From contig NZ_CP047027.1 in NCBI RefSeq assembly GCF_009797025.1, forward strand, positions 496,001 through 560,000: a DNA stretch of 64,000 nt, given 5' to 3'. This DNA comes from Cellulophaga sp. L1A9 (lineage in GTDB: Bacteria > Bacteroidota > Bacteroidia > Flavobacteriales > Flavobacteriaceae). The notes under the pieces were generated by a model, which searched no databases, was not told the origin of the DNA, and saw only the letters and a list, made by a program, of their open reading frames with translations. This document shows, one piece after another, positions 9,305 through 56,952 of the stretch (the first letter of the stretch is position 1; each line of letters starts with the position of its first letter). A program made the position numbers and the translations under genes.

Positions 9305-9315
9305 TTAATTGACTG

Positions 9316-28497: not shown

Positions 28498-28507
28498 AAA
28501 GTAATAG

Positions 28508-29098: not shown

Positions 29099-29104
29099 GA
29101 ACCA

Positions 29105-32617: not shown

Positions 32618-32620
32618 GGT

Positions 32621-35600
32621 ATGAATACAAAAACGTTTGCACAAGAAGCTCGTAAAATACTCATGCAAGGTGTTGCTAAAAAACTATTGTATTGGGGATT
32701 TAATGATAAAGGAGAAGTTTTAGAACAACCAGAAAAAGTATCTGGAGGTTACAGTTTTAGAGGCGATGTTTTTGATGATCCTTCGGTGCCTAATTTATGG
32801 AAATCATTAGAAAATGCTATTAAAAACAAAGGTATTGACGTCGTTGTAGAAGAAGCAGCTTATACCTGGTTTAACCGTATTATGGCATTGCGTATTTTAG
32901 TGAAAAATGGCTATGAAGAACCACAATTAGAAGATGCACAAGGTTTAGAACACACGCCAATCATTTTACAAAAAGCACGACAAGGTAAAAGTGAATTTTT
33001 AACTGCGGAAGAAAAAAACAGGCTACAAAAAATACTAACAGATTACAGCAAAGACCAAGAGGCTTTTGCCATATTATTAAAAGGCTATTGCCATAGTCAT
33101 AAAACCTTGCAACGTGTTTTTGGTAAAATAGACGATTATACCGAGTTATTGCTACCAGACAACATGCTGCAAACCGATGGTTTTTTGCATTTATTAAATA
33201 CCACAGATGCTATAAGTGATGACGACTACCAAAAAGTAGAACTCATTGGTTGGTTGTATCAGTTTTATATTTCTGAAAAGAAAGATGATGTGTTTGCATC
33301 CTTTAAAAAAGGGAAGAAGGCAGAAGCCAAAGACATACCAGCAGCCACCCAAATTTTTACACCTAATTGGATTGTAAAATACATGGTAGAAAATACCGCA
33401 GGAAAAATTTGGCTAGACAAACACCCAAATTCTGCATTAAAAACCCAAATGAAATATTTGGTAGAAAACGAGTCTGATGCTACAGCCGTCAGTTCGAGTG
33501 CGCAGCGTATCGAGAACAAGGCGATAATTAATACTGTAGAAGACCTAACCTTAATAGACCCAGCAGCAGGCTCAGGACACATTTTAGTAGAAGGTTTCGA
33601 CCTTATCTACAAAATGTATATAGAAGAATACTATACAGCGGAAGAAGCAGTGCAATCTATTCTAAAAAACAATTTATTTGGTTTAGACATAGACGATAGA
33701 GCTGCGCAGCTAGCCACTTTTGCTATTCTATTAAAAGCTGCACAAGTATATCCTGCTATTTGGAGCAAAGATTGGTTGCCTAATGTGTATGCCATGCCAG
33801 AAGCAGCAGATTTTAGTGTACAAGAAATCAAAGATTTTTTAGGCGAAGATGGTGCAGATTATATAGAAGAATTAGATGCTGCATTGCGCTTGATGAAACA
33901 AGCGAAGAATTTAGGTTCTGTAATGAAACTAGATATTAGCGAAGAAGCAAGAAATTATATTGAAGAACGTTTTACCAAAATCAAAAATACCGAGTTTAGA
34001 GATTTTAATATTGAAGTCATTTACCCAAAGCTTAAAACCTACATTCCTGTTTTATTACTATTAACTAAAAAATATACTTCTGTAGTAGCAAACCCACCTT
34101 ATATGGGACAGAAGAACATGAATGCAGATTTAAAGAATTATGTGAATGCAAATTACCCTTTATCAAAGTCTGATTTATTTGCAGTTTTTATGGAGTCTAC
34201 TGTAGCGATGAATCTACCTAATGGTTTAATGGGAATGATAAACCAACATTCATGGATGTTTTTATCCTCTTATCAAAAATTAAGAGAACATATTTTAAAA
34301 AATTTCGGTATTGTAAATATGTTACATCTAGGATCAAGAACTTTTGAAGAACTAAGCGGAGAAGTAGTGCAATCAACAGCTTTTGTTCTTAATAAAGTAG
34401 CAATTCCTTCTCATAATGTTTTGGATTATTCAGGAACATACTTTCGTTTGGTAGATTATAAGAATGTTAATGAAAAAGAAGAGAATTTTCTTGAAAGAAA
34501 TAATCAAATCTCTAATATTTCTCAAACTAATTTTCCTAGAATTCCAGATAGTCCGATTTCTTATTGGTTATCTAAAAATGCATTAGAAATGTTTAATTGG
34601 AGTAAGCTAGGGGATTATGCATTGCCTCAAACTGGTTTGCAGACAAGTGATAATAAAAGATTTGTTAGGTTATGGAGTGAAATAGATTACAATACTATAT
34701 TTTTTGATTGTAAAAATATTCTTGAAACTAAAACTTCTAAGTTAAAATGGTATCCATATAATAAAGGTGGATCTCATAAATGGGCAGGAAATCATGAGTT
34801 TTTAGTTAATTGGCAACATGATGGAAAAGAATTAAGAGAGTTTAATAATTTCTTAAATTCAACAAGAACTTCGAGTATTGGAATTGGTAGTACTGAGTAT
34901 TTTTTTCAAGAAGGAGTCACAATAAAAAAAGTAGGATCAACTGGATTTAGTGCTAGATTTTTAAATTCAGGATATATTTTTGACGCAGGTGGATCTGTTT
35001 TTTTCTCTGAATGTCCAGAAATTTTAGTTGCTTTCTTAAATTCAAAGATTGCGACTTATGTATTAAAAGTACTTAATCCGACAGTAAACTTTCAAGTTGG
35101 AGATATTAAAAGAATTCCTTTTCATCATAGTTTAGAAACGAGGAAAGATTTAGTCGATTTAGAAAAAGAAATATATGGTTATTCAATAAAAGATTGGAAT
35201 TCAAGGGAGGAATCTTGGGATTTTGATAAATCACCGTTAATAAACAACACCAATTCTTTAGAAGAAGCATATTCAACATGGCAAAATGAGGTTACTAAAG
35301 ATTTCTTTCAACTGCACAGCAACGAAGAAGCACTCAATCGCATTTTTATAGCTATTTATGGTTTACAAGACGAGCTAACACCAGAAGTGGCTTTAAAAGA
35401 TATTACCATTTTACAAGAAGAACTCAAGAAAAATGATGTAGAAAAATTAGAAGAAGCGTTTAGAGAACAAGGTGCAGAAGCTATAGAGTTACCAATTAAT
35501 AAAGCAGAAGTAATCAGTCAATTTATTAGTTATGCTATTGGTTTATTTATGGGACGTTATCGTTTAGATAAAAAAGAGTTAAATATTGCGCATCCAAATC

Positions 35601-36202
35601 CAACTAAAGAAGAGTTAGAAAGTTACAATTATAACTATGGCAACATTATTATAGATGAAGATGCTATTCTACCATTGATGGGAACAGCTTGTAATTTTCC
35701 AGATGATGCTTTACAACAATTATATAGCTTGCTAGATGTTATTTGGGGTACAGAAACACGTACAGATAACATCAACTTTATACAAGACTGTTTAAACAAA
35801 GATTTAGAGAAATTCTTGGTTACAGATTTTCACAAATACCATTGTAGCATGTATAAGAAAAAACCAATTTACTGGTTGTTTGCGTCTAAAAAAGGCGCAT
35901 TTCAAGTCTTAGTCTATATGCACAGAATGAATGCCTTTACAGTAGAAAAAATACGTGATAATTATTTATTAGAGCATATAAAAAATATAGAGGCCGAGAT
36001 AACCTTATTATCAAGTAACGAAGCCAATTTAAACACCCAAGAAGCTAAGAAGTTAGAACAATTACGCAAAGACTTACAAGAATGTTACGAGTATGAAGCA
36101 GAGTTAAAAACGGTGGCAGACAATCAAATCACTTTCGATTTAGACGATGGTGTTACCGTAAATTACAAAAAGTTTGAAACCGTAGTGGCAAAGATTAAAT
36201 AA
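32621..36202 (+). CDS. pglX: BREX DNA methyltransferase PglX (BrxX)
   Basis: A 1193-residue N6-adenine methyltransferase that marks host DNA and whose target recognition sets BREX specificity. The SAM motif DPAAGSGH lies near residue 312 and catalytic motif IV NPPYMG near 490. Before them is a long helical N-terminus (WFNRIMALRILVKNGYEEP) typical of PglX. Residues about 590-860 form the variable target-recognition region, where composition shifts from the flanks. The C-terminus is a helical domain ending with a charged region (residues 1120-1193). Confidence 0.94.
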   Translation: MNTKTFAQEARKILMQGVAKKLLYWGFNDKGEVLEQPEKVSGGYSFRGDVFDDPSVPNLWKSLENAIKNKGIDVVVEEAAYTWFNRIMALRILVKNGYEEPQLEDAQGLEHTPIILQKARQGKSEFLTAEEKNRLQKILTDYSKDQEAFAILLKGYCHSHKTLQRVFGKIDDYTELLLPDNMLQTDGFLHLLNTTDAISDDDYQKVELIGWLYQFYISEKKDDVFASFKKGKKAEAKDIPAATQIFTPNWIVKYMVENTAGKIWLDKHPNSALKTQMKYLVENESDATAVSSSAQRIENKAIINTVEDLTLIDPAAGSGHILVEGFDLIYKMYIEEYYTAEEAVQSILKNNLFGLDIDDRAAQLATFAILLKAAQVYPAIWSKDWLPNVYAMPEAADFSVQEIKDFLGEDGADYIEELDAALRLMKQAKNLGSVMKLDISEEARNYIEERFTKIKNTEFRDFNIEVIYPKLKTYIPVLLLLTKKYTSVVANPPYMGQKNMNADLKNYVNANYPLSKSDLFAVFMESTVAMNLPNGLMGMINQHSWMFLSSYQKLREHILKNFGIVNMLHLGSRTFEELSGEVVQSTAFVLNKVAIPSHNVLDYSGTYFRLVDYKNVNEKEENFLERNNQISNISQTNFPRIPDSPISYWLSKNALEMFNWSKLGDYALPQTGLQTSDNKRFVRLWSEIDYNTIFFDCKNILETKTSKLKWYPYNKGGSHKWAGNHEFLVNWQHDGKELREFNNFLNSTRTSSIGIGSTEYFFQEGVTIKKVGSTGFSARFLNSGYIFDAGGSVFFSECPEILVAFLNSKIATYVLKVLNPTVNFQVGDIKRIPFHHSLETRKDLVDLEKEIYGYSIKDWNSREESWDFDKSPLINNTNSLEEAYSTWQNEVTKDFFQLHSNEEALNRIFIAIYGLQDELTPEVALKDITILQEELKKNDVEKLEEAFREQGAEAIELPINKAEVISQFISYAIGLFMGRYRLDKKELNIAHPNPTKEELESYNYNYGNIIIDEDAILPLMGTACNFPDDALQQLYSLLDVIWGTETRTDNINFIQDCLNKDLEKFLVTDFHKYHCSMYKKKPIYWLFASKKGAFQVLVYMHRMNAFTVEKIRDNYLLEHIKNIEAEITLLSSNEANLNTQEAKKLEQLRKDLQECYEYEAELKTVADNQITFDLDDGVTVNYKKFETVVAKIK

Positions 36203-36204
36203 GT

Positions 36205-38733
36205 ATGATAGAAACTAAAGCCAAGCAATACTTTACCGATTCACCTGCACTAAAAATCTTGTTTCTATTTGATGAAGCACAAGAGTTTTTAGAAGAGGTG
36301 CAACGTATAGATACTTCAGATTTTAAAGTGGTGTATTGGGAGAATAATCCGTTTATATTAAAATACCAATTAACGCATGAGTTAAAAGACGAAAAAGTAT
36401 TGTTGTACTTAAACTTACCACAACCTAATTCTCAAGAGGCATACCACCAATTCCCATTAATGGGTTTATTATTAGCAAATAAAGAATTACAGCTAGACAA
36501 TGTTGGTGCTTTTATGGAGGAGTTTGGTTTGCAACGTCACCAAAAAAGCATGGTATCTAAATACATGGCAGAATTAAAATATGCAAGTGTAAAGGACGTT
36601 GTGAAACCCATTTTAGTATCGGGTAATTTTCAGGAAAAAGAATTACAGCAAGGGTTATTATCCGCATTTTTAAAATTTAAAAATGTAGAAAATTGGGTGG
36701 TTTTAATCACCAAGTTGTGCATATTGGCACAAGAAAAAAATGAAGTATCTTTTAAACGTGTGCAACAAAAAATAAAAGGCACACATTTAGCCGATATTAT
36801 TATTGCAAAAGTAGGACATCATATGGGCTACAATTTAAAAGCAATTTCTGCCATAGAGTTTTTACAAGCAGCAAAAAGTGTATTGTACAATTACACCATG
36901 CAAAATAGTCGTTTAGCAAAAAACGATCCCTATGCCACATTAAAAATTAATGATACCAGTCATCTAACATCTATCAATCAGTTTTGGCAAGTGGTAGAAA
37001 GTAATCCTTTAGTTTCTAACGGTTTTCAAGAACTGTTAGTAAACATTCAAAACGATATTAAAGGAGAGCAATTGGTTAAGGCCTATGGCATAGAAGAAAA
37101 TTATGCTTTTTATCCAAATAACTTAACCTGGGCAATTTTAGAACAATTGCAAACAAAGATCATTACAAATGATGCTGTTGGCTTACAAGTATTAGAGAAT
37201 TTAGGATTACAACAAGAAGTACAAGGAGCAGCTAAAGAAACGGTTCGTTTTTTACGACAAGTATTAAAAACATCATTAGCAATAAATAATATTACAACAT
37301 ACACTTTAAATACACCAGAAGAGTACATTGCCTATTACACCAACGAAGTATATAAAATTGACACCAATTTTAGGAGAGCTATATTGTATTTTAATGAAAT
37401 TGATAGTGTAGAAGTACCTGCAACTATAGATTTAGAAGCATTAAAAAATCATTTAAATGAGACTTACAATAAGCATATAGATCAATTAAACAGACAATGG
37501 TTACAATGTTTATCTAGAATAGATTTTGACTACAAAACCATTCAAACACCAAAACAATATGACTTCTATAAGACAGAAGTTGCTGAGGTGGATCAGAAAA
37601 TGGTAGTCATTATTTCTGATGCATTGCGTTATGAGGTAGGAGAAGAACTGTTATCTAAAATGCATGGAGATACTAAAAACACCGCAGAAATAAGACACAT
37701 GTTAGCATCTGTTCCATCTAGAACGAGTGTTGGTATGGCGCAATTATTACCTGGAGAAAAAGTATTTAATTCAGGAAAGATTTTAAGCGATGGACTTTCA
37801 ACAGAAAGCACCTATAGAAGTAATTTACTTCAAAAGTATAAATCAAATGCAGAAGGCGTGCAATTTGAGGCTGTAAAAAATGCGAAGCAAGCAGAAAACA
37901 GAGCGTTGTTTAAGAATGATTTAGTATACATTTATCATGATGTAATTGATGCAAGAGGAGATAAAAGAGTTTCAGAAAGAAAAACATTTGAAGCAGTAAG
38001 GGAAGCAATTGCAGAGTTAGAACGGTTTATTAAGTTACTGCACAGTTCTTACAATGTGACCAATGTATTAGTGACCGCAGATCATGGGTTTTTATACAAC
38101 GACAAAAAAATTGTAGATAAAGAATTAGAAACCTTACCAAGCGATACATTTATTTCTCATAATAGATTCTTTATTACAAAAGAAAAGAAAGAACAAGAAT
38201 TGGGATATACTTTTCCACTTAAACAAACCACAACTTTTAAGGAAGACTTTTATGTAAATATTCCGTTTTCAGTAAATAGGTATCGTAAATCTGGTGTAGG
38301 ACATCAGTTTGTACATTGTGGAGCTAGTTTACAAGAATTAATAACACCATTAATTGTAAGTTCTAGAAAACGAATAGAAGTTGCTAAAAAGGTGAATCCA
38401 ACATTGTTAAACAAAGGCAAACTTCGCGTAGTATCCAATGTGTTGAAATTTAATATTCTGCAGGAAAACGAAGTGTCACGTTTAGAAAAAGAAAGAACAA
38501 TTAATATCGCATTATATAAAGAAACAACTTTGATAAGTAATAGTGTTGATATTGTTTTAAATAGTACATCAGAAGCACCAAGCGATCGATTAACAAATGT
38601 AGAGTTAATTGTAAACGCTGAGTTTTCTAACGAAAATGTTTTTAAATTAAAAGTATTTGATATAGACGATATGCTAAATCCTTTAATTGAAGAGTTAGTA
38701 ATTAATAACACCTTATTGGCGCAAGATTTTTAG
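36205..38733 (+). CDS. pglZ: BREX phosphatase-like protein PglZ (BrxZ)
   Basis: An 842-residue protein with the PglZ alkaline-phosphatase-like core. VVIISDALRYEVGEELL near residue 467 holds the first metal Asp. VPSRTSVGMAQLLPG near 510 and VTADHGFLYND near 625 hold the DHG metal ligands. It is required in every BREX type; a nuclease or phosphatase activity has been proposed for the family. The N-terminal 450 residues are helical. It is two bases after pglX and two before brxL. Confidence 0.94.
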   Translation: MIETKAKQYFTDSPALKILFLFDEAQEFLEEVQRIDTSDFKVVYWENNPFILKYQLTHELKDEKVLLYLNLPQPNSQEAYHQFPLMGLLLANKELQLDNVGAFMEEFGLQRHQKSMVSKYMAELKYASVKDVVKPILVSGNFQEKELQQGLLSAFLKFKNVENWVVLITKLCILAQEKNEVSFKRVQQKIKGTHLADIIIAKVGHHMGYNLKAISAIEFLQAAKSVLYNYTMQNSRLAKNDPYATLKINDTSHLTSINQFWQVVESNPLVSNGFQELLVNIQNDIKGEQLVKAYGIEENYAFYPNNLTWAILEQLQTKIITNDAVGLQVLENLGLQQEVQGAAKETVRFLRQVLKTSLAINNITTYTLNTPEEYIAYYTNEVYKIDTNFRRAILYFNEIDSVEVPATIDLEALKNHLNETYNKHIDQLNRQWLQCLSRIDFDYKTIQTPKQYDFYKTEVAEVDQKMVVIISDALRYEVGEELLSKMHGDTKNTAEIRHMLASVPSRTSVGMAQLLPGEKVFNSGKILSDGLSTESTYRSNLLQKYKSNAEGVQFEAVKNAKQAENRALFKNDLVYIYHDVIDARGDKRVSERKTFEAVREAIAELERFIKLLHSSYNVTNVLVTADHGFLYNDKKIVDKELETLPSDTFISHNRFFITKEKKEQELGYTFPLKQTTTFKEDFYVNIPFSVNRYRKSGVGHQFVHCGASLQELITPLIVSSRKRIEVAKKVNPTLLNKGKLRVVSNVLKFNILQENEVSRLEKERTINIALYKETTLISNSVDIVLNSTSEAPSDRLTNVELIVNAEFSNENVFKLKVFDIDDMLNPLIEELVINNTLLAQDF

Positions 38734-38735
38734 TT

Positions 38736-40742
38736 ATGAGTTTAAAAGAAAAAATAATACAACATTTCGAAGGTAAAGTAGTTCGTAAAGATTTAACAGC
38801 AATAGTTAAAGGGAGTAATCCTGTTCCTGTTTATGTTTTAGAATATTTATTAGGACAATACTGTGCTATTGATGATGAAGAAATTATTGCAGCAGGTATT
38901 GAAAAGGTTAAAAATGTAATTAGAGATAATTATGTACACCGTTCGGATGCAGAAGTTGTAAAAGCTAAAATTAGAGATAGCGGAAGCTATAAAATTATTG
39001 ATAAAATTAATGTATCGCTTAATGACAAGGCGAATATATACGAAGCAGAATTTGCTAGTTTAGGTTTAAAAGGAGTTCCTATTGCTGACAAAATGGTAAT
39101 GGATAACCAAAAACTATTAAGTGGTGGTGGCGTTTGGTGTATTTTAAATATTGGATATTCTCATGCAGATGATATTACAATGCGCTGGATTATTGTAGAT
39201 TTGAAACCTATTCAAGTTTCTAATGTTAATTTGAAAGAATATGTCGATTTAAGAAAAGAGTTCACAACGGAAGAATGGTTGGATCTATTAATGCACAGCA
39301 TTGGGTTAAATCCAGAATATTTTAATACGCGTGATAAGTTTATACAGTTGTCACGTTTAATTCCACATACAGAAAACAACTATAATTTTATTGAATTAGG
39401 ACCTAAAGGAACTGGTAAGTCTCATATATTTTCAGAGTTATCACCGCATGGTGTTTTAGTGTCTGGAGGCGATGTGTCTAAAGCGAGACTATTTGTAAAT
39501 AACACAGGAAATAAAATTGGATTAGTTGGCTATTGGGATGTTGTAGCACTCGATGAATTTGAGCAAGAAAAAGGAGGAAAGCGTACCGATGGTGATTTGG
39601 TAAAGATCATGCAAAATTACATGGCAAACCAGAGTTTCAATAGAGGTAAAGAAACCTATCAAGCCACAGCGTCTATGGCTTTTGTGGGCAACACGAAGCA
39701 TAACGTGCCTTATATGCTAAAGAACTCACATTTATTTGAGTCTATTCCTGAAGGCTATTTAAAAGGTGCTTTTTTAGATAGAATGCATATGTACATTCCT
39801 GGTTGGGAAGTTCGTATTCTTAAAACAGCAGTCTTTTCATCGGAGTATGGTTTTATAGTAGATTACCTAGCAGAATTGCTGAGAGAAATGCGTAAGTATG
39901 ATTTCTCATCTATTATGGATAAATACGTAAAGCTTGACGGATCGTTAACAACAAGAGATAAAACAGCCATTAGAAAAACATTTTCTGGGTTAGTGAAATT
40001 AATATATCCGCATCAAGAGGTTTCTGAAAAAGAAGCTTTAGAGCTTTTAAATTTTAGTATTGAAGGACGAAAGCGTGTGAAAGATCAATTATATATTATT
40101 GATGAAACATTTAAATCAGAACCAGTTGATTTTAAATATACTATACTGTCCAACGGTGTTGAGGTATATCCTGAAACACTAGAAAATTTAAATTACAAGG
40201 CGGCAGTTGAGATACAGGAAGAAACCGAAGCAGAAGATTCTGGAGAAGTCGTTGTGAAGCCTAAATTAGAACTAAAACCACATCAAACGATCTTAAAAGA
40301 TAATCAAACAGGTATATCCTATAAAAAACTCTTTGCTAACTATTTAAAAGGCGCTAAGAATATTACCATTCAAGATCCTTATATCAGGATGTATTACCAG
40401 TTTAAAAACTTATTAGAATTCTGTATCATGCTAGGGAATATTAAAGATCCTGAAGACCAAATCAATTTAGAAGTGGTGACTTGGAATCATGATGAATATT
40501 TGGAAGAATCAAGATCGTCATTAGAAGAATTAGCTCAAAATGTAGAAAGTATAGGGATAAACTTAACATTTCGTTTTGAACAACATCACGATCGTTTTAT
40601 TGCTGCAGATAATGGTTGGAAAATTACACTAGGTAGAGGCCTTGATATTTTCGAGAAGATTGAAGAACGTTTTAGCGTAGCTGATATGGATCAGACCAAA
40701 AGGAAGTGTAAGTCTTGTGAGTTGACGTATTTAAGAATTTAA
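38736..40742 (+). CDS. brxL: BREX Lon-like protein BrxL
   Basis: A 668-residue AAA+ protein of the Lon-like BrxL family, which marks this as type I BREX. Walker A is GPKGTGKSH near residue 222, after ENNYNFIELG, and Walker B VALDEFEQEK near 270. NTKHNVPYMLKNSHLFESIP is the sensor region. BrxL forms DNA-binding barrels in studied cases and is needed for defence. It is the last gene of the BREX operon; the next gene starts 82 bp later. Confidence 0.93.
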   Translation: MSLKEKIIQHFEGKVVRKDLTAIVKGSNPVPVYVLEYLLGQYCAIDDEEIIAAGIEKVKNVIRDNYVHRSDAEVVKAKIRDSGSYKIIDKINVSLNDKANIYEAEFASLGLKGVPIADKMVMDNQKLLSGGGVWCILNIGYSHADDITMRWIIVDLKPIQVSNVNLKEYVDLRKEFTTEEWLDLLMHSIGLNPEYFNTRDKFIQLSRLIPHTENNYNFIELGPKGTGKSHIFSELSPHGVLVSGGDVSKARLFVNNTGNKIGLVGYWDVVALDEFEQEKGGKRTDGDLVKIMQNYMANQSFNRGKETYQATASMAFVGNTKHNVPYMLKNSHLFESIPEGYLKGAFLDRMHMYIPGWEVRILKTAVFSSEYGFIVDYLAELLREMRKYDFSSIMDKYVKLDGSLTTRDKTAIRKTFSGLVKLIYPHQEVSEKEALELLNFSIEGRKRVKDQLYIIDETFKSEPVDFKYTILSNGVEVYPETLENLNYKAAVEIQEETEAEDSGEVVVKPKLELKPHQTILKDNQTGISYKKLFANYLKGAKNITIQDPYIRMYYQFKNLLEFCIMLGNIKDPEDQINLEVVTWNHDEYLEESRSSLEELAQNVESIGINLTFRFEQHHDRFIAADNGWKITLGRGLDIFEKIEERFSVADMDQTKRKCKSCELTYLRI

Positions 40743-40767
40743 TTAAGTTTGAATGTATGCTAAGTGA

Positions 40768-40782
40768 TTTACATTTTGTAAA
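40768..40782. promoter_or_regulatory. Palindromic dyad upstream of the alkB operon
   Basis: TTTACA (40768-40773) and TGTAAA (40777-40782) around TTT, in the 82-bp gap after brxL. It is a candidate operator, suggesting that the following four genes have their own promoter. No exact TAnnTTTG is present. Confidence 0.35.
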
Positions 40783-40824
40783 TTAAAATTTGTTAAACCT
40801 TCTTAAAAGAATATAGATTAGTAA

Positions 40825-41445
40825 ATGGATTTATTTAACCAAACACCAAAAAAACGCGAGTTTAAGAAAATAAAATTAAAGGATGGGGAGGTTTGGTATA
40901 TGGAAAGTTTTATACCTCTTGATAAAGCCAATAACTACTTTAAGACTTTTTTAGAAACAATTAACTGGCGACAAGAAGAGATAAAAATGTATGGAAAAAC
41001 CTATCCAGTACCGCGTAAAACTGCTTGGTACGGTTATGAAGGCTTTAATTATAAGTATTCAGGTATTTTATGTAATCCAGAACCTTGGACAAAAGAACTT
41101 CTAGGTATAAAAAGGGTAATAGAAAGTTTTTTACCAGAATCAGATTTTAATAGTGTTCTCCTTAATCTTTATCGAAACGGCAGTGATAAAGTAAGCTGGC
41201 ACGCAGATGATGAAAAGGGACTGGGAACGAATCCTTTAATTGCATCTGTAAGTTTGGGAGCAACAAGGCGATTTGATTTAAAGCATAAAATAGATCCAGA
41301 TGAAAAACTCCAGTTAGAATTAGCTCCTGGATCATTAGTTATTATGAAAAGTGCTTTGCAGCATAATTGGTTGCACCAAATTCCTATACAAAAAAGAATT
41401 TTTGATTCAAGAATAAATCTAACATTTAGAACTATTGTGAGCTAA
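40825..41445 (+). CDS. AlkB-like 2-oxoglutarate/Fe(II) dioxygenase
   Basis: A 206-residue dioxygenase resembling the ALKBH2/3 branch of AlkB, which oxidatively removes methyl groups from DNA or RNA bases. The iron ligands are H126 and D128 in SWHADDE and H184 in NWLHQIP. R196 and R202 in RINLTFR bind 2-oxoglutarate. NLYRNGSDKVSWH and ASVSLGATRRFDLKHK are typical. It overlaps the next gene by one base (TAATG), so it is translationally coupled to the methyltransferase-like/Hsp70 fusion. That makes a role in the same pathway likely, rather than a stray repair gene. Confidence 0.9.
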   Translation: MDLFNQTPKKREFKKIKLKDGEVWYMESFIPLDKANNYFKTFLETINWRQEEIKMYGKTYPVPRKTAWYGYEGFNYKYSGILCNPEPWTKELLGIKRVIESFLPESDFNSVLLNLYRNGSDKVSWHADDEKGLGTNPLIASVSLGATRRFDLKHKIDPDEKLQLELAPGSLVIMKSALQHNWLHQIPIQKRIFDSRINLTFRTIVS

Positions 41446-43940
41446 TGAGTGTTTACAATAAAATTGTGGAAGCCATAGATGAATTAAATGATGCACCACT
41501 AGAAATTAAAGAGTATTTACAATCTCTAAAACCAGATGTCAAGCACTTAAGAGTTTCTTATAGAAAACCACCGCCCGTTTACGTGGATTATGCATTACAA
41601 AACATTCAAAGTGCATATCTCATTACTTATCTACCACATTACTACCAACTTATATACAAAATATTATTAGAGCAGAATTTACAGGTTATGAAGTCTAAAA
41701 CAGCTTTCTCTGCTGTTTTTATAGGTGGAGGACCTGGATCTGAAGCTTATGGAACTGTAAAATACATCCTTGATTACTGTCCTGATATAAAAAACATCTC
41801 TATTGATATTTTAGATATTAACGCGAACACTTGGGACTATAGTCATTCAGTTTTATCTGGGTTTTTGCTTCCTGAACTGAATGGTTATAATGAAGTATCC
41901 ATAAAATGGAATAGCCATCAATTTAACCTAGTAAATAAAAATGACATAAAATTAAATACTTCTCTTATTGATAATGCAGATATAGTTGTTATTCAAAACT
42001 GTATTAACGAAATTGCTAAAACAGACTATCAAATATTAGAAGAGAATGTTTTGGAGATTTTTAAATTATTACCTGATTATTCTTCTTTATTGATGGTAGA
42101 TTTAACTACTAGTGTAAGATCAAAAATTGCTAAACTAGAGCAAGTTGTTGAAAGTTTTTTTCCAGAGTTAATTAAAACAACTACATCAGGAAATAAAGGA
42201 GCTTCTGCCTTAACTTCTATTAATTATAGGCCATCTCAAATTATTAGAGAAAACTTATTGGACTTTTCAGATGGATTAATGCCTCGGAAAAACTTAAAGT
42301 ATGATTTTTCACTATTGAATAAGAGTTCCTATTCAATAGTGGAAGATAAAAAGCGAATTGGGATTAACGCTATTTACCGTCCTTTGAGTAATATTAATGA
42401 ATCTATACAAGATTTAACAAACTGTTCATTTATTGGGATAGACTTTGGTACTTCAAGCTCTGTTTGTTCTATTGCGTATATTCAGAATGATTCTCTTAAA
42501 GTAGAACTATTAGAGATCGAGCAAAAAGACCATTTGGGTTCAATATCTAGTAGTACGATAGTTCCAACTATAATGGGTATTGTTGGTAAACAGTTTTTAT
42601 TAGGTAAATACGCTCAGGATAGAAGACATGAATTCACTTTTGGAGAAGATGGTTGGTATGGCTTTAAAGAGAATATATTAAATCTGGAAGATCAAATATT
42701 TCCTGAATCTAGATTATTGAATCATCCATCTCTACAAATTAACAACGGAGCAGATGCTCTTGTTGTTTTCTTTAAAAGATTAAAAAGCGAAATAGAAAAA
42801 AATGTAATCGAAAAAGGATTGTCGTTAGAGAAACGTTTTTCCTTCAGTACTCCTGCAAATTATGGGCTAAAAGAAAAAGAACTACTCGAAAAATATATTG
42901 TTCAAGCTGGATTTGAACAAGGAACTTTTTCCTTTGTAGAAGAACCAATTTCATCCCTTCTTGGGACTATTCATCAGGAAAATTTAGCCTTGGACCTAGA
43001 AAAAGACCTAAACATTTTAGTTATTGATGTAGGCGCAGGAACAGTTGATTGCTGTGCAATTAAATTGCTAAAAGACACGGATAATGTGATGGCAGAAACT
43101 CTAGCTATATATAGAAATGAAAACATAGGAGGCAATCTTATCAATAGACTAATTGCTAATAAACTTTTTGAAAAAGATAATAGTATAACAATAGATGAAG
43201 ATTTTGTTTTGAAAATTTGTGAAGAATCAAAGCTTCAATTTTGTAAATCGTTTATGGTTGATGCTCAAGTCGACTATTCTTTACCAGAATTAGCTAATTC
43301 CAATCAAAATAAAAATTGCCAAATTGGATCTTATGGAATAGATACCAAGCTTCAGTTGAGTTTTTCTGAGTTTAATGAATTAATGGAGGTTTACTTTAGT
43401 GGAGGTGAGGGTTTCAATGGTTTTTCAGACACTATAGATAAAACGCTTTCTAGCGCAACTTTAGAACATAGTGAACTTGATCATATAATAATATCAGGCG
43501 GTGGTGCTAAAAATCCCTATTTGCGATCATTATGTGCGACTTATTTTGATGTCTCAAAAATAATCATGCCAAATAATAGTCAAGAACAGGTTGCTTTAGG
43601 CAATGCTATACAATCATTTGTCACGAATGCTTTTGGTAAACAGGTTATAGAATCTGTGCTAAATAGAAATATTAATATCATAGAAAGTGGAAAGCAAAAG
43701 CCTATTTTTAAAAAAGGAGAAGTACTTCCTACTTTAGAATACGAGATTAACATTGAAAAGAGTAATAATTCTTTAGAGTTTTATTCAGAAATAACCAATG
43801 AAAGCATCCACTTTAAATGGGATCAATCCATGGGAGCAATAAAAGCAATTATAATAATAAATCAAGAATCAAGAGTTATTTGTGATTTAGTTACTAACTC
43901 ATCAATTATTAGAGTTAAACCAATTATAAAAAAAAGATAA
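41445..43940 (+). CDS. Methyltransferase-like domain fused to Hsp70/DnaK-type ATPase
   Basis: An 831-residue two-part protein. Residues about 1-300 look like a class I SAM-binding Rossmann domain: VFIGGGPGSEAYG (92-103) as motif I, DILDINANTWDY (121-132) as the acidic end of strand 2, and IVVIQNCINEI near 180-190. Residues about 328-730 are an Hsp70-type actin-fold ATPase: phosphate-1 GIDFGTSSS (331-339), VEEPISSLLG (498-507), phosphate-2 IDVGAGTVD (527-535), IGGNLINRL (561-569) and adenosine motif IIISGGGAKNPYL (681-693). A small C-terminal region (740-831) replaces the normal substrate-binding domain. It sits between alkB and a helicase in a tight operon. I do not recognise this fusion from any named defence system. 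Whether the first domain actually methylates is unknown. Confidence 0.8.
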   Translation: MSVYNKIVEAIDELNDAPLEIKEYLQSLKPDVKHLRVSYRKPPPVYVDYALQNIQSAYLITYLPHYYQLIYKILLEQNLQVMKSKTAFSAVFIGGGPGSEAYGTVKYILDYCPDIKNISIDILDINANTWDYSHSVLSGFLLPELNGYNEVSIKWNSHQFNLVNKNDIKLNTSLIDNADIVVIQNCINEIAKTDYQILEENVLEIFKLLPDYSSLLMVDLTTSVRSKIAKLEQVVESFFPELIKTTTSGNKGASALTSINYRPSQIIRENLLDFSDGLMPRKNLKYDFSLLNKSSYSIVEDKKRIGINAIYRPLSNINESIQDLTNCSFIGIDFGTSSSVCSIAYIQNDSLKVELLEIEQKDHLGSISSSTIVPTIMGIVGKQFLLGKYAQDRRHEFTFGEDGWYGFKENILNLEDQIFPESRLLNHPSLQINNGADALVVFFKRLKSEIEKNVIEKGLSLEKRFSFSTPANYGLKEKELLEKYIVQAGFEQGTFSFVEEPISSLLGTIHQENLALDLEKDLNILVIDVGAGTVDCCAIKLLKDTDNVMAETLAIYRNENIGGNLINRLIANKLFEKDNSITIDEDFVLKICEESKLQFCKSFMVDAQVDYSLPELANSNQNKNCQIGSYGIDTKLQLSFSEFNELMEVYFSGGEGFNGFSDTIDKTLSSATLEHSELDHIIISGGGAKNPYLRSLCATYFDVSKIIMPNNSQEQVALGNAIQSFVTNAFGKQVIESVLNRNINIIESGKQKPIFKKGEVLPTLEYEINIEKSNNSLEFYSEITNESIHFKWDQSMGAIKAIIIINQESRVICDLVTNSSIIRVKPIIKKR

Positions 43941-43943
43941 TAT

Positions 43944-45119
43944 ATGCAGTGGATGATAGAAGAAGCTAGGCTTGGTCCTGAGCAAAGAGATATTATTGAA
44001 GAAATGAATGATTTGAATGGCAAACCTGTTTGGATACAAGGTCATGCAGGTTCTGGGAAATCTATAGTATTACTACATGCGCTAACAGACTATATAATAC
44101 GTAATCCAAATGCAAAAATCGTAGTTGTTGTTTTTACACATGCATTGATAGATTTGTTATCTTCAGGTTTAAGGCAAATTCCAGCATTAAACGGTAGGAC
44201 TATTCCAGTAATAACTATTTATGACATTAATGGCCGCCTTTATAGAAAAGAAAGGTTTGATGCTATCTTCTGTGATGAGATACAGGATATCCCAACAGTT
44301 CTTTTGGAAAGAATAAAAAAGGGTTGTAATCAATTAATCATTGCAGGAGATGCAGCACAATCGATTTACTCTTCTGTCCCTAATTTTAACGAAAGACCAG
44401 CAACTAAAGAAGAAATAATACAACAACTAAATCCTGAGGTTAAAAACACAACAACTATTTATCGGCTAACTAGAACTCTCATTAGCGTACTGAAGAATGT
44501 ATATACAGATCTTTTCGCTGATATGGTACATATTGGAAGAGAAGATTCTGAAATTAGACTGTTTAAAACTGACTCTTATCATAAAGAGATAGAATTTTCA
44601 TGGAAAGAATCTAAACAGATCAATATTGATAGACCAGGCGAGGTAAATGCTGTGTTATTCTATAAAAGAATTGATATTATAAAATATGTAGATACTGTTT
44701 TAGCTTTAGAAGGAAAAAAGAAATGGTCAACTGGTACTTATCCTGATTATGACGATGAGAGTAGAAATTATACAGAAATGAATAATCACTTAAATAGTCA
44801 AAATGTACCTTTGATGTATGTCGGAAGTAAAATTGGATCACTTGAGAAAGCAGATAGTACAAACAAAATTGTAATTATGACATACCACTCTTCTAAAGGA
44901 TTAGACTTTGATGCGGTTTCATTACCAAATATTCAAACAGATTTGAGTACATCTGACAATGAAAATGCATTAATTCTTGTAGCTTTGTCTAGAGCTAAAA
45001 GAGATTTATTTATAACGTTTACAAATACAATGTATTCTGGCTATAGCAGGTTTCTTTTAAATACGCCCGTTAAGTTAATAAACGATTCAAAAAATGATAA
45101 CGACGACGTCGTTTTTTAA
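43944..45119 (+). CDS. Compact superfamily 1 helicase
   Basis: A 391-residue SF1 helicase. The Q-motif is LGPEQRDII (Q14), Walker A is GHAGSGKS (33-40), Walker B is FDAIFCDEIQD near residue 110, motif III is IAGDAAQSIYS near 135, motif V is MTYHSSKGLDFDAV near 315 and motif VI is LVALSRAKRDLF near 350. The usual 1B/2B insertions of UvrD are small, so this is a minimal core. It starts 3 bp after the Hsp70 fusion. It probably unwinds or translocates on nucleic acid in the same pathway. Confidence 0.85.
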   Translation: MQWMIEEARLGPEQRDIIEEMNDLNGKPVWIQGHAGSGKSIVLLHALTDYIIRNPNAKIVVVVFTHALIDLLSSGLRQIPALNGRTIPVITIYDINGRLYRKERFDAIFCDEIQDIPTVLLERIKKGCNQLIIAGDAAQSIYSSVPNFNERPATKEEIIQQLNPEVKNTTTIYRLTRTLISVLKNVYTDLFADMVHIGREDSEIRLFKTDSYHKEIEFSWKESKQINIDRPGEVNAVLFYKRIDIIKYVDTVLALEGKKKWSTGTYPDYDDESRNYTEMNNHLNSQNVPLMYVGSKIGSLEKADSTNKIVIMTYHSSKGLDFDAVSLPNIQTDLSTSDNENALILVALSRAKRDLFITFTNTMYSGYSRFLLNTPVKLINDSKNDNDDVVF

Positions 45120-45129
45120 AAAAACAAAG

Positions 45130-46731
45130 ATGAAAAATATAATTGTCATCCTACAACGCGCAGAACTAAACTATCTAATTAAATATGATAGTATAAGAAT
45201 AGCATCAGATAGAATAATAAATCTTACATATGAGGAGTTTAAGCAACTGTCTGACAAACAGAAGATCGCTATTTTGCAAAACTCGTTACCAATTTATGAG
45301 CAAGAACACGAAGTGTTTTTAATAGAATACCACGCGAATTCAATAGGCTATGATAATGGGCCAATATTAGAATTCAAAGGGATTTATTCACTAATTCCTT
45401 TGTCTGAAATAGGGGCAAGATTACTATCTTCCAAACTGAATACAGACTTCAATGTTTTAAAGCCATTAGAATCGAAACTTTATAAATCTTTTATTAATAA
45501 TAGAAGCCATCTTTTAAGATATAAAGCTGGACAACAACTTTGTTCATTATACCAGGTTCCAAATCCTAAGGAAGAATTTATAACAGATTTCAAAACAGCT
45601 ACATTATTTCAATTAAATGAAGCTACTCCTAACGGTAATGATTCTACTCTAGCACATCTTATTGATTTTAATATTACACCAAGTTTCATTCCAGAAGGAA
45701 ATATAGAAGCTGTAATAAAAGCTGCCTGCGTAGGTATGAAAAAGTTAAATAAGGAAGTCGATCAAATTACGAGAAGTACTTTTTATAGCTTTGTGATTAA
45801 AGAAAAATCAGCAATAAATAGCAAAACATTATATAAGGCCATACAATATATTGAAGAAAAAACAGATCTTGATAATGAAGAAAAAACACGTTTTAATAAA
45901 CTTAAAAATACTTTATCGGAGAATGGTAAATATGCAAATGCATTCCTGCTTTTTAGCTACTTTTATTTTTTAAAGAAACAAATAGAAAAGAATGACTATA
46001 ATATTTCGATAGCTAAGGATGATATCCTAGAATTGAAACATTATGACTCAGAAGTAGCCTCAAAAGTACTCTTTATGTTAGGATATACTTTCTCAATACA
46101 AACCATATCAAAGTCTATTCAATCATTTTCAAAAAGCAGATTACTAAAAACTCAAAAGAATTTAGATTTAGATTGGAGTCCTAAAGAAGTTGTTGAACTT
46201 AAATCAGAAAATAAAAAATCTAGTCAGGAAGAAAAACCAGTTGTAGTTGATCTCCTTATTAAAGAAAAACAAAACTTAAAACCTTTATCTGACCTTCAGA
46301 ATAGCAATGATAAAACAAAACTTAAAACTAATGAAGAGAGTACAAAGGATAAAAACGAATTTGATGTAGACACATCAACAAGTAAACAATTAGAAGAAGA
46401 AAAAACTCCAATCGAAAATAAAATTAATGAAGAGGCTCCTCCCTCTATTGTTACGTTTAGTAATATAAAAAAACCTGACTCTGATTTATTTTCAAAGAAT
46501 ATAAAAACAAAAAACAAATCTCTTTTTACTTTTCAAGAGTTTGAAAATATTCTTAAAAAAAGGAAATCATTTTTATCTAAAATAGTAAATGCACTAAAAG
46601 CAATAGGTATACAAGAAAGTGAAATTACAGAAGAAATATTAATTAAGTGTTTAGAAGACCTTGATGAATATAAAAAACAAAATGGAGGTCTTAAAGTAAA
46701 TGCGAAAGAGTCCTTAAAAATTTTTGAATAA
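45130..46731 (+). CDS. Unknown protein, last gene of the alkB/Hsp70/helicase operon
   Basis: A 533-residue protein I do not recognise. I start at ATG 45130 (MKNIIVILQRAELNYLIKY), 10 bp after the helicase stop. An in-frame ATG at 45094 would overlap the helicase and add 12 low-quality residues. Residues 1-130 are mixed alpha/beta and 130-360 largely helical. Residues about 365-480 form a lysine/glutamate/serine-rich disordered linker, and the C-terminus 485-533 is helical (FENILKKRKSFLSKIVNALK). The linker suggests a flexible tether between a core and a C-terminal binding module. It has no TM segment and no visible catalytic motif. Confidence 0.7.
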   Translation: MKNIIVILQRAELNYLIKYDSIRIASDRIINLTYEEFKQLSDKQKIAILQNSLPIYEQEHEVFLIEYHANSIGYDNGPILEFKGIYSLIPLSEIGARLLSSKLNTDFNVLKPLESKLYKSFINNRSHLLRYKAGQQLCSLYQVPNPKEEFITDFKTATLFQLNEATPNGNDSTLAHLIDFNITPSFIPEGNIEAVIKAACVGMKKLNKEVDQITRSTFYSFVIKEKSAINSKTLYKAIQYIEEKTDLDNEEKTRFNKLKNTLSENGKYANAFLLFSYFYFLKKQIEKNDYNISIAKDDILELKHYDSEVASKVLFMLGYTFSIQTISKSIQSFSKSRLLKTQKNLDLDWSPKEVVELKSENKKSSQEEKPVVVDLLIKEKQNLKPLSDLQNSNDKTKLKTNEESTKDKNEFDVDTSTSKQLEEEKTPIENKINEEAPPSIVTFSNIKKPDSDLFSKNIKTKNKSLFTFQEFENILKKRKSFLSKIVNALKAIGIQESEITEEILIKCLEDLDEYKKQNGGLKVNAKESLKIFE

Positions 46732-47294: not shown

Positions 47295-48485
47295 CTAATT
47301 CTTGAACTGTTCCTGTTTAAAGGTATAATGACGACCTTTATGATTGGTTTCTTCTACAATTGGTTTATTCAAAGTAGAGTTAGAAATATGATATTTAATA
47401 TACGTGCTGTTTTTAGTTTCTAAATTATACTTGTTTTTTAGAAGATCAGAAATTTTAAAGGAGGAAACTCTAATATTGTTTTTAAGTAATTTATCCACTA
47501 AATCTCCTGCGGAATATTTTAGTTCCTCTTTTTCAAACATGTAAAATTCATCACTAATAATTTGCTCCAACTCTTTATGTAGATAGGTCTTGTTCCCATC
47601 CTTTAAAACTCTCAAAGCATCTGTGTAAATTTGATCTTTAGTAAACCACATCCTAGTTTTTTTAGGAGAAATAATTGATCTATTATTTATGAAATCTAAA
47701 AAGCAAGGTATTTCGGTATTTAAGTCATCCAATAAATTCGGGTTATCCTCTTCCAAATTAAATGGAATAATTTTTCTGACCCAGTACCTCGTTTCTTCAG
47801 CATCTATATATACAAAGTTCTCTTCATTATTAGAACATAATACAAACTTCCCGAAAAAACTGCCTTCTACTTTGTCTTTTCCTTTTGCTTCACTTTTATA
47901 AGTTTTAGCAGTTGCTAGATTCTTCAGGCGTTCACTATCTTCTCTTTTATCGAGTAAGACTTCATCCACAGCAATTATTAATTTGGAAGCCCAATCAGAG
48001 TTAAACCTAGATCTAAAATCTTCATTATTATTAATAGTCATGTTATTTTGAAAAATAAGTTTTAACCAATTGATGAATGTTGTTTTACCAGTGTTTCGTT
48101 CATTACTAACAAGACATAAGATTGGTAGTACCTGTGAAGGGTATTTCCAAAGTACACTTAGATAATCAAGAGCTAAATTATATTGCTCTGCAAAAATATG
48201 TTTTAGAAATTTTTCCGTCTCTAAGAAATCTCCACCATGCGTTTCGTGATTTAATTCTTCATATTTATTATAAAACCCATCAATTTCAGATTTATAATTA
48301 GTGTGAGATGGAATTAAGCAAAAGCCATCATATTTGGCGATATCCTTTATATATTCTTTACCGTGATCTGTACTTATTTCATTTTTAGACCAAGCAACTA
48401 AAGTTTTAATATGGTCTCCACTGTGTAATGGTATTGTTACATCCTTATAATAAGTTGTTCCTATTCTTAAATATTTTTGTTCCAT
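47295..48485 (-). CDS. Primase-helicase family protein (SF3-like, DUF5906)
   Basis: A 396-residue ATPase resembling phage/plasmid primase-helicases. Walker A is SNERNTGKTTF (127-137) and Walker B is LIIAVDEVLLDKRED near 170. VLCSNNEENFVYIDAEETRYWVRK near 210-235 matches the sensor region of SF3-like helicases, and the C-terminal part carries a winged-helix-like stretch. No primase active site is evident, so this is probably only the helicase half. It likely replicates the excised element. It is 2 bp after the upstream 104-residue gene. Confidence 0.8.
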   Translation of the reverse strand: MEQKYLRIGTTYYKDVTIPLHSGDHIKTLVAWSKNEISTDHGKEYIKDIAKYDGFCLIPSHTNYKSEIDGFYNKYEELNHETHGGDFLETEKFLKHIFAEQYNLALDYLSVLWKYPSQVLPILCLVSNERNTGKTTFINWLKLIFQNNMTINNNEDFRSRFNSDWASKLIIAVDEVLLDKREDSERLKNLATAKTYKSEAKGKDKVEGSFFGKFVLCSNNEENFVYIDAEETRYWVRKIIPFNLEEDNPNLLDDLNTEIPCFLDFINNRSIISPKKTRMWFTKDQIYTDALRVLKDGNKTYLHKELEQIISDEFYMFEKEELKYSAGDLVDKLLKNNIRVSSFKISDLLKNKYNLETKNSTYIKYHISNSTLNKPIVEETNHKGRHYTFKQEQFKN

Positions 48486-50781: not shown

Positions 50782-52026
50782 TTAAAAATCCATAATTGAG
50801 TTAGCGAATTCCTTTTTGGCTTCATCCTCAAAACCAGCAAAATAATTTTTAGTCACACTAAGGTCGCTATGATTTAAAGCTTCACTTATAAATTCCATAC
50901 TAGCCCCCTTACGAAGTGAATTAGTTGCGAAACTATGTCTTGCATAGTAAAATGAAATATCCTTTGGTAAGTCATTTGCTTTTGCAATTCTCTTAATGTG
51001 GTCATTCACATAGCGCGTAAAGTTTTTTATTTTTTTATGTTGTTCTAAAGTATCGTCTTCAGAACTTATGATATCAAATACAAAACCATTCTTACATTTA
51101 ATTCCATATTGTTGGATAATACTTTTCGTAAAGTCAGTCAAATAAATAATAATCTTAGTTTTTTCTGCAGTTTTATCAAAAGTTTTAGCCCTATAGTAAG
51201 TGAATTTATCATCTTTGATATCCGAATATTTTAATAGCGCAATGTCCTTTGGATTTATTCCGTTGCAGGCAAAGCTAAAAAACCAAAAATCTTTAGCTTT
51301 TGCTTCGTTGCTATTTGCTGTTTTAGATTCGAATAAAACTTTAAGCTCATTTGAATTTAGAGCCTTCTTTACTTTTTTGGTTCTTGGTATTTTGTATTTA
51401 TTCTTTCCGAATGGGTAGTAATCAGCATTAAGGTCATTGACCTCAATTGCATTATTGAAGATAACTCTTAGCGTTCTAGTGTATATTGAAACTGTAGTGT
51501 AACTTTTGCCCATAGCCAGCATATGTTTTTCATAATCTTTCAACCACTCTATAGTTATATCTTGAAATCTTAGCTTTTCTATAGCGCACCTCTTTATTTC
51601 TTTACTAAAATTACTTAAAGAATTTAAAGTGTATTTGAAGCTTTCAGAAGTATTTATTTTGTCATTTTTAATGTTTTTTTCAATAGCTAAATGAAAATGA
51701 TAATATAAATTGTTTTTGTCAGAAGTTTTTCTAAATAGCTTAAATTCAAACTTAGAAAAATTAAATACATCCATTAACTTCGCTTCGTCATTTGCTCTAT
51801 TTTCAATAGATTGAAGCCTTAAACGTAAATCTTTATTTGAGCCTCTAAGATTACGATTTTTAGGATTTAACCAAATATCTTCAAACTCTTTTTCCGTTAA
51901 GTCAATGTCTAAACTATACCATTTTTCTTTTTTACTTGTTTTACCATAAACACGGAGTTTTACAGGATACATTCCAGTTCCTTTTTTTCTGCGCTTATCT
52001 AATCGTATAGAAATATTGTAACTCAT
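50782..52026 (-). CDS. int: Tyrosine recombinase (site-specific integrase)
   Basis: A 414-residue integrase from ATG 52026 (MSYNISIRLDKRRKKGTG); an upstream in-frame Met adds 9 residues unlike the family. It has an N-terminal arm-binding region (1-95), a SAM-like core-binding domain (about 105-205) and a catalytic domain. Visible catalytic residues are H/R in YYARHSFAT near 360, His in ALNHSDLSVTKNY and the nucleophile Tyr in that segment (VTKNYFAG). At the usual Arg I position the sequence reads ACNGINPKDIALLK, with no Arg. It is beside the right end of the element, so it is its integrase. Confidence 0.9.
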   Translation of the reverse strand: MSYNISIRLDKRRKKGTGMYPVKLRVYGKTSKKEKWYSLDIDLTEKEFEDIWLNPKNRNLRGSNKDLRLRLQSIENRANDEAKLMDVFNFSKFEFKLFRKTSDKNNLYYHFHLAIEKNIKNDKINTSESFKYTLNSLSNFSKEIKRCAIEKLRFQDITIEWLKDYEKHMLAMGKSYTTVSIYTRTLRVIFNNAIEVNDLNADYYPFGKNKYKIPRTKKVKKALNSNELKVLFESKTANSNEAKAKDFWFFSFACNGINPKDIALLKYSDIKDDKFTYYRAKTFDKTAEKTKIIIYLTDFTKSIIQQYGIKCKNGFVFDIISSEDDTLEQHKKIKNFTRYVNDHIKRIAKANDLPKDISFYYARHSFATNSLRKGASMEFISEALNHSDLSVTKNYFAGFEDEAKKEFANSIMDF

Positions 52027-52037
52027 TACTAAATTAT

Positions 52038-52078
52038 TTCTGCAAATATACATGTCTTGCAGAAAATTTGCAGAAAAA
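52038..52078. repeat. Right integrase arm-type sites
   Basis: Two tandem TTGCAGAAAA copies (52057-52078), identical to the left-end block and in the same orientation, plus one inverted copy TTCTGCAAAT (52038-52047) just upstream of the integrase start. The inverted copy could also let integrase regulate its own gene. Confidence 0.65.
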
Positions 52079-52190: not shown

Positions 52191-52237
52191 TTGATTACGG
52201 CTCAAGAGGTTACTGGTTTGAATCCAGTCGAGGTCAC
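52191..52237 (+). repeat. attR: right 47-bp attachment repeat
   Basis: Exact copy of 25467-25513, the 3' part of tRNA-Arg from the anticodon stem. It lacks the 5' half of the tRNA, so it is not a working tRNA gene. Confidence 0.95.
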
Positions 52238-52248
52238 TAAACAATATC

Positions 52249-52287
52249 AAACTCCTACTAATCTTATGATTTGTAGGAGTTTTTTTT
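52249..52287 (+). terminator. Original tRNA-Arg terminator, displaced to the right junction
   Basis: Two-step hairpin: outer arms AAACTCCTAC / GTAGGAGTTT, inner AATC / GATT with loop TTAT, then a T-run. It sits 11 bp past attR, where the tRNA terminator would have been before insertion. Confidence 0.85.
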
Positions 52288-52601
52288 ATTAGTATTGAAA
52301 CTTTTGGCACTTTAGAATTGTTACTATTCTTGCTCCGTTATTTTATTAGGCATTAGCATTTTGATTAGCCTTTAACTTCCCCTTTAAATAACAAATAAGA
52401 CCATAGCAAGAGGCTCAAGTTCTTCTCTTAATACCATCAAAAACATTAGATTCAAATTAAAATATCAATCCAATCAAAAAAAAATTCTATAAAGCTAATT
52501 CGTCATAGAACTAGAACGTAACTTTCCGCTTGGAAGTTATATTTCTGTAAAACTTCATAAACTGGATTATATCAATTATTTTTATCAAATAAATTACAAG
52601 C
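52288..52601. other. Intergenic region upstream of metallopeptidase
   Basis: 314 bp with no gene, repeat or clear promoter that I can support. Confidence 0.4.
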
Positions 52602-56761: not shown

Positions 56762-56808
56762 AAACAATATCAAACTCCTACGAATCTTATGATTTGTAGG
56801 AGTTTTTT
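56762..56808 (+). repeat. Second copy of the tRNA-Arg terminator block
   Basis: 46 of 47 bases match 52239-52285, including the whole two-step hairpin. The flanking AGTCATA also resembles the tRNA end GGTCACTA. The rest of 56609-56952 contains no gene I can support. The duplication implies an earlier insertion or duplication at the tRNA. Confidence 0.85.
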
Positions 56809-56952
56809 ATAATTAATAATGTTGTCAAATTAATTTAGACCAAATAAGAAATATAATAAGCATTATTTGATGTATTTTAAAATGTATTTACATATGCTCT
56901 TCTCAAAGTGTTGGCAAAGGTTTCTGTTAATAGATTATCAAAGTTTGATGTT

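Follow-up and report, generated by a model that had tools for sequence, protein, structure and literature searches.

CoCoNuT systems of types II and III combine an Hsp70-like protein with a superfamily 1 (SF1) helicase, often together with a HEPN effector, and are predicted to act on RNA, according to the accessible parts of PMC11090510. The same two components occur in a four-gene operon, hereafter the cassette, at positions 40825-46731 of a 64,000-nucleotide stretch of the Cellulophaga sp. L1A9 genome (the window), where the open reading frame (ORF) listing gives an AlkB, a class I methyltransferase (MTase)-like/Hsp70 fusion, a minimal SF1 helicase and an orphan protein. CoCoNuT, however, centers on McrB/McrC-type proteins, and neither an McrB GTPase nor McrC appears among the Pfam or PADLOC matches listed for the cassette. 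The CoCoNuT helicase, unlike that of the cassette, resembles UPF1 and carries a large helical insertion, and the accessible text describes no AlkB or S-adenosylmethionine (SAM)-binding partner (PMC11090510). The operon joins two units that also exist separately, an AlkB+MTase pair and an Hsp70-helicase unit, and we read their combination, with a probability of about 0.38, as a mobile defence module with a back-up (auxiliary) role.

Back-up auxiliary effectors, HEPN among them, are recruited beside BREX according to the available parts of a 2026 survey (PMC12839542), whose main text, searched apart from its supplements, contains none of the terms Hsp70, AlkB, 2OG, dioxygenase and chaperone. The window cassette follows a BREX operon, and a related AlkB+MTase pair in Picosynechococcus follows DUF1156 and DUF499 genes, a likeness to BREX and BREX-Related (BR) systems; the cassette also occurs away from BREX. 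No Brx/Pgl model was matched by AlkB, fusion or orphan, and none is found among the 25 of 39 helicase matches listed. Similarly, an HmaC/DUF499 gene of the Hma kind lies directly before the Picosynechococcus pair, whereas the window proteins match no Hma model among the PADLOC matches listed.

A preliminary description of this DNA had assigned the four genes to no named defence system, and the searches agree: PADLOC-DB 2.0.0, NCBIfam and PHROGs contain no system naming the set. In PADLOC, used as the defence-system finder, there was no full match for the set and no full-length family match for fusion, helicase or orphan; the fusion matched only PDC-M61B (1.1e-5 over ~120 residues), the helicase gave partial matches to 39 models (25 listed) and the orphan gave none. 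Nor is the set described in the literature within reach, to which most subscription papers and preprints do not belong, including the accessible parts of PMC11090510, PMC8610418, PMC8066212, PMC3710099, PMC8195603, PMC7824862, PMC7159879 and PMC12839542. The earlier proposal of an undescribed system therefore stands as regards the missing name, but it overlooked that the operon is composite. The cassette is thus unnamed in the references searched, and its putative kind is that of a defence-island auxiliary module. A phage origin was considered and rejected, since a pattern-limited alignment search of viral_contigs returned no MTase or helicase relative and phage records held no fusion relative at E 1e-8.

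A composite of two separable units

All four genes lie on the forward strand: alkB at 40825-41445, the fusion at 41445-43940, the helicase at 43944-45119 and the orphan gene at 45130-46731. The packing originally described, with a 1-bp overlap between alkB and fusion, a 3-bp gap between fusion and helicase and a 10-bp gap between helicase and orphan, is confirmed when the orphan start is taken as the ATG at 45130, from which its homologues align (the listed ORF begins at 45094). The alkB start lies 82 bp past the end of brxL at 40742, and all six proteins of the BREX operon there match PADLOC models.

The strongest clue to the mechanism is that the presence of AlkB in the loci examined follows that of the MTase-like domain and not that of the helicase, the Hsp70 or methyltransferase neighbours. 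In 12/12 loci alkB immediately precedes the gene for the MTase domain, at gaps of -4 to 81 bp, and tblastn found no AlkB in any of the four stretches that encode an Hsp70 without that domain (L030, L034, L035 and L060). For loci that come from searches rather than a random sample, this difference corresponds to a Fisher p of 5.5e-4, which becomes 1.4e-3 once related loci are merged to leave nine.

AlkB+MTase pairs without Hsp70 are found in L029, from a genome of the host's class, and on cyanobacterial plasmids. The latter include a Planktothrix plasmid, Synechocystis 6803 plasmid pSYSA (L058, ~5 kb from cas1/cas2), a Synechocystis 6714 plasmid (~3 kb from cas2) and a Picosynechococcus 7117 plasmid, on which the pair stands directly after the DUF1156 and HmaC/DUF499 genes (HmaC 6.7e-123). 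Eight plasmid records match the standalone MTase, and AlkB lies upstream in all four that were opened; the four left unopened are all from Synechocystis. On pSYSA, where the MTase-like gene is SGL_RS01090, the second gene downstream of the pair (L058:7739-9088, +) matches PADLOC C3a124 at 5e-78.

The second unit, an Hsp70 and helicase without the MTase domain, is present in L030, L034 (Antarctobacter plasmid), L035 and L060 (Persicobacter plasmid), each time followed by a third gene. This gene encodes a relative of the orphan in L030 (E 0.004 alone) and in L035 (6e-46 with a profile including L030, 2.7e-8 to L023 alone). L035 adjoins SNF2, IIG and PDC-M04A genes, and its Hsp70 gene is split into two ORFs (7288-7794 and 7870-9729, +).

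The N-terminal slot of this Hsp70 varies. The L034 protein has 390 relatives, the best 120 of which include ~1000-residue HEPN_Swt1-Hsp70 proteins and ~800-residue forms without HEPN. After 76 were picked from these 120 and two lacking the Hsp70 start motif were dropped, 74 were left, and the N-terminus of 67 has an RN/RD-x3-4-H motif, which in the printed rows is mostly RNRxAH, so that the homologous slot carries a HEPN Rx4-6H-type motif. In a tree of 44 Hsp70 domains, which omits P0073 and L060 (no start motif) and the split L035 and in which L013 (branch 4.08) may not be a DnaK, the MTase-bearing proteins form one clade (100/98), drawn beside the forms that have HEPN or are bare. Five changes of the HEPN label are needed in this tree, and well-supported branches force at least three of them. 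As judged from these comparisons, the Hsp70-SF1 helicase pair is a putative chassis whose N-terminal domain is exchanged between HEPN and MTase-like. Bacterial Swt1-like domains are called active in the accessible part of a paper on HEPN proteins, which also reports one fused to a DUF499 ATPase in restriction operons.

The seven cassette AlkBs form one clade (99/98) in an AlkB tree for which 20 chromosomal AlkBs were fetched and from which L090 and L096 were dropped (no ORF by the filter). The host encodes two other AlkB-like proteins, 46% and 38% identical to that of the cassette, and an AlkB-like match occurs in 18/18 genus genomes (fragments only in G1030); the cassette copy is therefore probably dedicated.

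Domains and active-site motifs

The domain parts named in the preliminary description fit the Pfam matches and the predicted structure of the fusion. AlkB (206 aa) is a Fe(II)/2-oxoglutarate (2OG) dioxygenase matching PF13532 at 5.6e-31 (108.7 bits against a cut-off of 31.2), and its matches to ALKBH3 (2.5e-33) and ALKBH2 (3.4e-31) place it in the ALKBH2/3 type, with which it shares fold and metal and 2OG motifs. The HxD, second His and RxNLTFR motifs are kept in 12/12 MTase-linked copies. It differs from that type in that each of the 12 loci examined places it next to a class I MTase-like protein, and in being one of three AlkB-like genes in the host. A PADLOC match to CARF_2OG (PDLC01964, 1.6e-49), a model that we take to stand for CRISPR-associated CARF-AlkB fusions, reflects likeness of the AlkB part, but the cassette protein has no CARF domain.

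In the fusion, the model combines a Rossmann-type N-terminus with an Hsp70 ATPase domain. The Hsp70-like part with its short beta substrate-binding-like C-terminus (42411-43940, +) has an HSP70 Pfam match (6.4e-10), a nucleotide-binding domain fold and the nucleotide motifs of the family. DnaK structures align to the model mainly over residues 326-732 in the comparison with the PDB, and the C-terminus as modelled consists of a beta region (736-831) without the helical lid of canonical DnaK. Hsp70s associated with GTPases and tubulins, reported in the accessible parts of PMC7159879, have an arrangement different from the cassette.

The MTase-like domain (~residues 1-320; 41445-42410, +) has a strand and helix order and motifs that fit the Rossmann fold of class I SAM-dependent methyltransferases. 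Its GxGxxxE, D, W and QNCxNE motifs are invariant in 12/12 copies, standalone ones included. Foldseek comparison of the whole fusion model with a viral library returned methyltransferases at E 1.9e-6 to ~1e-5, not localized to this domain, and Hsp70 matches took up the listing from the search of the PDB with the fusion. Searches to assign the domain to an MTase family gave no usable hit. It is conceivable, although very improbable in our view, that the domain is non-catalytic and senses SAM or its loss, for example upon phage attack, thereby switching the Hsp70-helicase and leaving AlkB as the effector. That no family of catalytic nucleic-acid MTases was matched with confidence, and that an unusual QNCxNE stands (by eye) where amino-MTases have DPPY, would fit such a sensor, whereas the strict conservation of the SAM-site motifs and QNCxNE even in standalone copies, as well as the other AlkB-like genes already in the cell, would not.

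The helicase (391 aa) matches Viral_helicase1 (5.1e-11) and UvrD-helicase (5.8e-10) in Pfam and conserves Walker A/B and the later helicase motifs. Weak profile similarity (~1e-16) links it to Gabija GajB and other UvrD-type defence helicases; compared with GajB it is shorter, gives partial matches only and has no GajA partner.

For the orphan (533 aa; start set by its homologues), the model, with a mean predicted local distance difference test score of 77, comprises a folded region (residues 1-350), a disordered linker (354-463), in keeping with the flexible linker noticed earlier, and a small helical C-terminus. It has no Pfam match at E 0.1, and at E 0.001 Foldseek found no match in either the PDB or the viral library. 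Among weaker fold matches, rows 1-4 and 6-8 cover the N-terminus and comprise two of DarT, three of CC0527, one of Tpt1 and one of a 5'-p-ADPR-DNA complex (9lda), while row 17 is the Rhs1 toxin TreTu. We take DarT, CC0527 (presumably DUF952), Tpt1 and TreTu to share the ADP-ribosyltransferase fold. Profile comparison scored DarT and DUF952 at 0.1%, with controls and a reversed sequence at 0.1 to 1.0%, and gave no support, so that an ADP-ribosyltransferase-like N-terminus may serve as a lead only. Among orphan homologues the first 350 residues are common and the C-terminal ends differ, as if a domain had been exchanged.

Recurrence, defence neighbours and the host island

A retrieval that used only an alignment of the fusion gave six cassette loci (L021-L026), and all six carry AlkB, fusion, helicase and orphan in the same order, which argues against a chance assembly. 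The check asked for in the preliminary description came out in its favour, since the four genes form an operon across different genera of Bacteroidota, with varied defence genes nearby. Over the aligned part, identity to the window proteins is 69-91% for AlkB, 38-77% for the fusion, 47-92% for the helicase and 29-85% for the orphan. Conservation is highest for AlkB in five loci and for the helicase in L021; it is lowest for the orphan in five and for the fusion in L021. Protein searches returned 126 fusion and 40 orphan relatives. With the host counted, the MTase domain was found in 2/395 genomes of the class and the helicase, at E 1e-20, in 2/395 genomes of the phylum, in searches that score few first-look candidates per genome and may miss copies; within the genus the MTase domain occurs in 1/18 genomes, the host itself. 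The cassette thus looks rare.

Its neighbours are diverse. L021 has MADS-like mad2, mad5, mad7 and mad8, while in L023 a DrmD-like SNF2 helicase, an IIG-type methyltransferase and a DruE-like giant helicase surround the cassette; L025 has genes of the same kind (by eye), L024 an IIG part and L026 PDC-S15. Defence genes, by PADLOC or record annotation, are present in the stretch of 9 of the 12 MTase loci, L025 by its likeness to L023. Upstream of the L023 defence cluster lies, on the opposite strand, a UG19-type reverse transcriptase (L040:1149-3520, +), which has a partner gene. Just before alkB of L023, a second helicase-like protein (8243-9367, +), 25% identical to the cassette helicase and by eye without Walker A, belongs to the same train of genes and looks like a degenerate paralogue.

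This setting bears on a different explanation, doubtful but possible, in which AlkB, targeted by the fusion and helped by the helicase, would clear off-target N1-A/N3-C methylation from host DNA. The neighbouring PglX, MADS MTase, IIG enzymes or DUF1156 gene would be the source of methylation, and the cassette their companion rather than an effector. The window, L021, L023-L025 and L059 do each have a DNA methyltransferase-type gene within the same train of genes (called by eye in L025, and by record annotation and a literature passage on DUF1156 in L059), but none was recognized among the neighbours tested or annotated (not every ORF) in L022, L026, L029, L033, L058 and L061. The ALKBH2/3 type of the enzyme would suit the task, as would the position of the L029 pair beside a methylpurine-DNA glycosylase gene; ALKBH3 works with the ASCC3 helicase. 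There is also precedent, since both SAM and the activity of DNA methyltransferases give rise to 3-methylcytosine, as stated in the accessible part of a source citing Rosic et al. 2018. Such a repair role leaves the 12/12 tracking of the MTase-like domain by AlkB unexplained and fits strict pairing less well; moreover, the host already has its two other AlkB-like genes, and AlkB is absent beside the IIG/SNF2 genes of L035, whose Hsp70 lacks the MTase domain.

In the host, the cassette lies within a 26.8-kb island integrated at tRNA-Arg (25467-52237), as previously claimed. The island ends are a perfect 47-bp direct repeat of the tRNA-Arg 3' end (25467-25513 and 52191-52237), an integrase is encoded at 50782-52053, and the flanks are only 2.2 kb apart in G1019, the genus member with flanks most similar to those of the host. 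A general alkylation or nucleic-acid repair module, kept by mobile elements for their own maintenance, without an immune role and with its neighbours explained by cargo clustering, would suit these island and plasmid locations, the MobB/TraG-like genes (by eye) near L026 and the ordinary context of L029. We nevertheless consider it improbable: alkB occupies a same-strand place in defence gene trains, starting 1-3 bp past the preceding gene in L023-L025 and 82 bp after brxL here, and a HEPN-type domain fills the same slot of homologous Hsp70s.

The direct upstream neighbour of the cassette is the BREX operon (27910-40742, +), consisting of brxA, brxB, brxC, pglX/brxX, pglZ and brxL, and the PADLOC matches of the products (BrxA, B, C, X, Z and L) cover most of each protein (BrxL over 2-502 of 668). 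The dyad ATTTACATTTTGTAAAT reported at the operon start is present at 40767-40783 on inspection, but its sequence was not found upstream of alkB in L021-L026, and a conserved operator or regulatory role was rejected. A match to what we take to be the Bacteroidota promoter consensus, TTG-N19-TAAGTTTG (40722-40751, +), lies at the 3' end of brxL; it is weak evidence, because the two strands of the window together contain 14 matches to the pattern when the spacer may be 18-22.

Directly 5' of brxA is a WYL/WCX-domain regulator gene (26810-27811, +). A DUF5906 gene (47295-48485, -) has a primase-type PHROG match with the integrase nearby, and the island could be an element of the satellite type. 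At 56763-56821, a 92% copy of 52240-52297 suggests a second, neighbouring insertion beside the right end of the island.

A predicted methyl writer and eraser

In the back-up defence module that we favour, the widespread Hsp70-like ATPase and minimal SF1 helicase, together with a third protein, would constitute an ATP-driven sensor and motor acting on nucleic acid or nucleoprotein. The slot before Hsp70 would carry the effector, a HEPN-type RNase in many relatives and the class I MTase-like domain here. Once the sensor fires, this domain would methylate DNA or RNA bases, and AlkB would remove the methyl group so that self is spared or rescued. A methylating effector with its eraser is the simplest reading, because the domain replaces an RNase effector and brings its own demethylase. 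Travelling with methylation-based and other defence systems, the module may act as a second line when those are bypassed. N1-A/N3-C type marks are those erased by ALKBH2/3-type enzymes. The more specific proposal of a writer/eraser immune system, in which an Hsp70/helicase-gated MTase puts a base-pairing-blocking methyl on nucleic acid during infection with AlkB as antidote and a putative antiphage effect, we regard as unlikely.

Several observations weigh against the favoured reading. The L029 pair, among ordinary-looking genes next to the methylpurine-DNA glycosylase gene, favours repair; this locus, for which no PADLOC scan was made, has no clear defence neighbour, L022 has none among the four neighbours scanned, and the two scanned in L033 gave only weak matches (E1-E2). 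The neighbours scanned with PADLOC were moreover chosen by hand, without a random-locus control. The third gene of L034 and L060 has no detectable similarity to the orphan and corresponds by position only, and the L060 helicase is distant from that of the cassette (~20%). The 12 MTase-linked AlkBs do not form one clade (1% of bootstraps); joint descent of all of them across phyla is consequently not supported, and the pairing may therefore have arisen more than once. The Hsp70 tree carried warnings of long branches (DnaK with the MTase rows) and odd composition. Finally, the MTase-like domain has no confident Pfam or PDB sequence match and, by eye, no DPPY-type motif of amino-MTases, and it could be a SAM sensor.

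DarT/DarG are writer/eraser toxin pairs. If the writer/eraser proposal is true, the cassette would be their methyl counterpart, and such a system would have its minimal form in the AlkB+MTase pairs that stand alone on cyanobacterial plasmids. The comparison points to an Hsp70-SF1 helicase chassis whose N-terminal domain is predicted to be either HEPN or MTase-like. Bacterial AlkB, usually taken as housekeeping repair, gains a dedicated partner and a defence-island setting, and the methyl-based writer/eraser pair predicted here is directly testable via the pair on Synechocystis PCC 6803 pSYSA.
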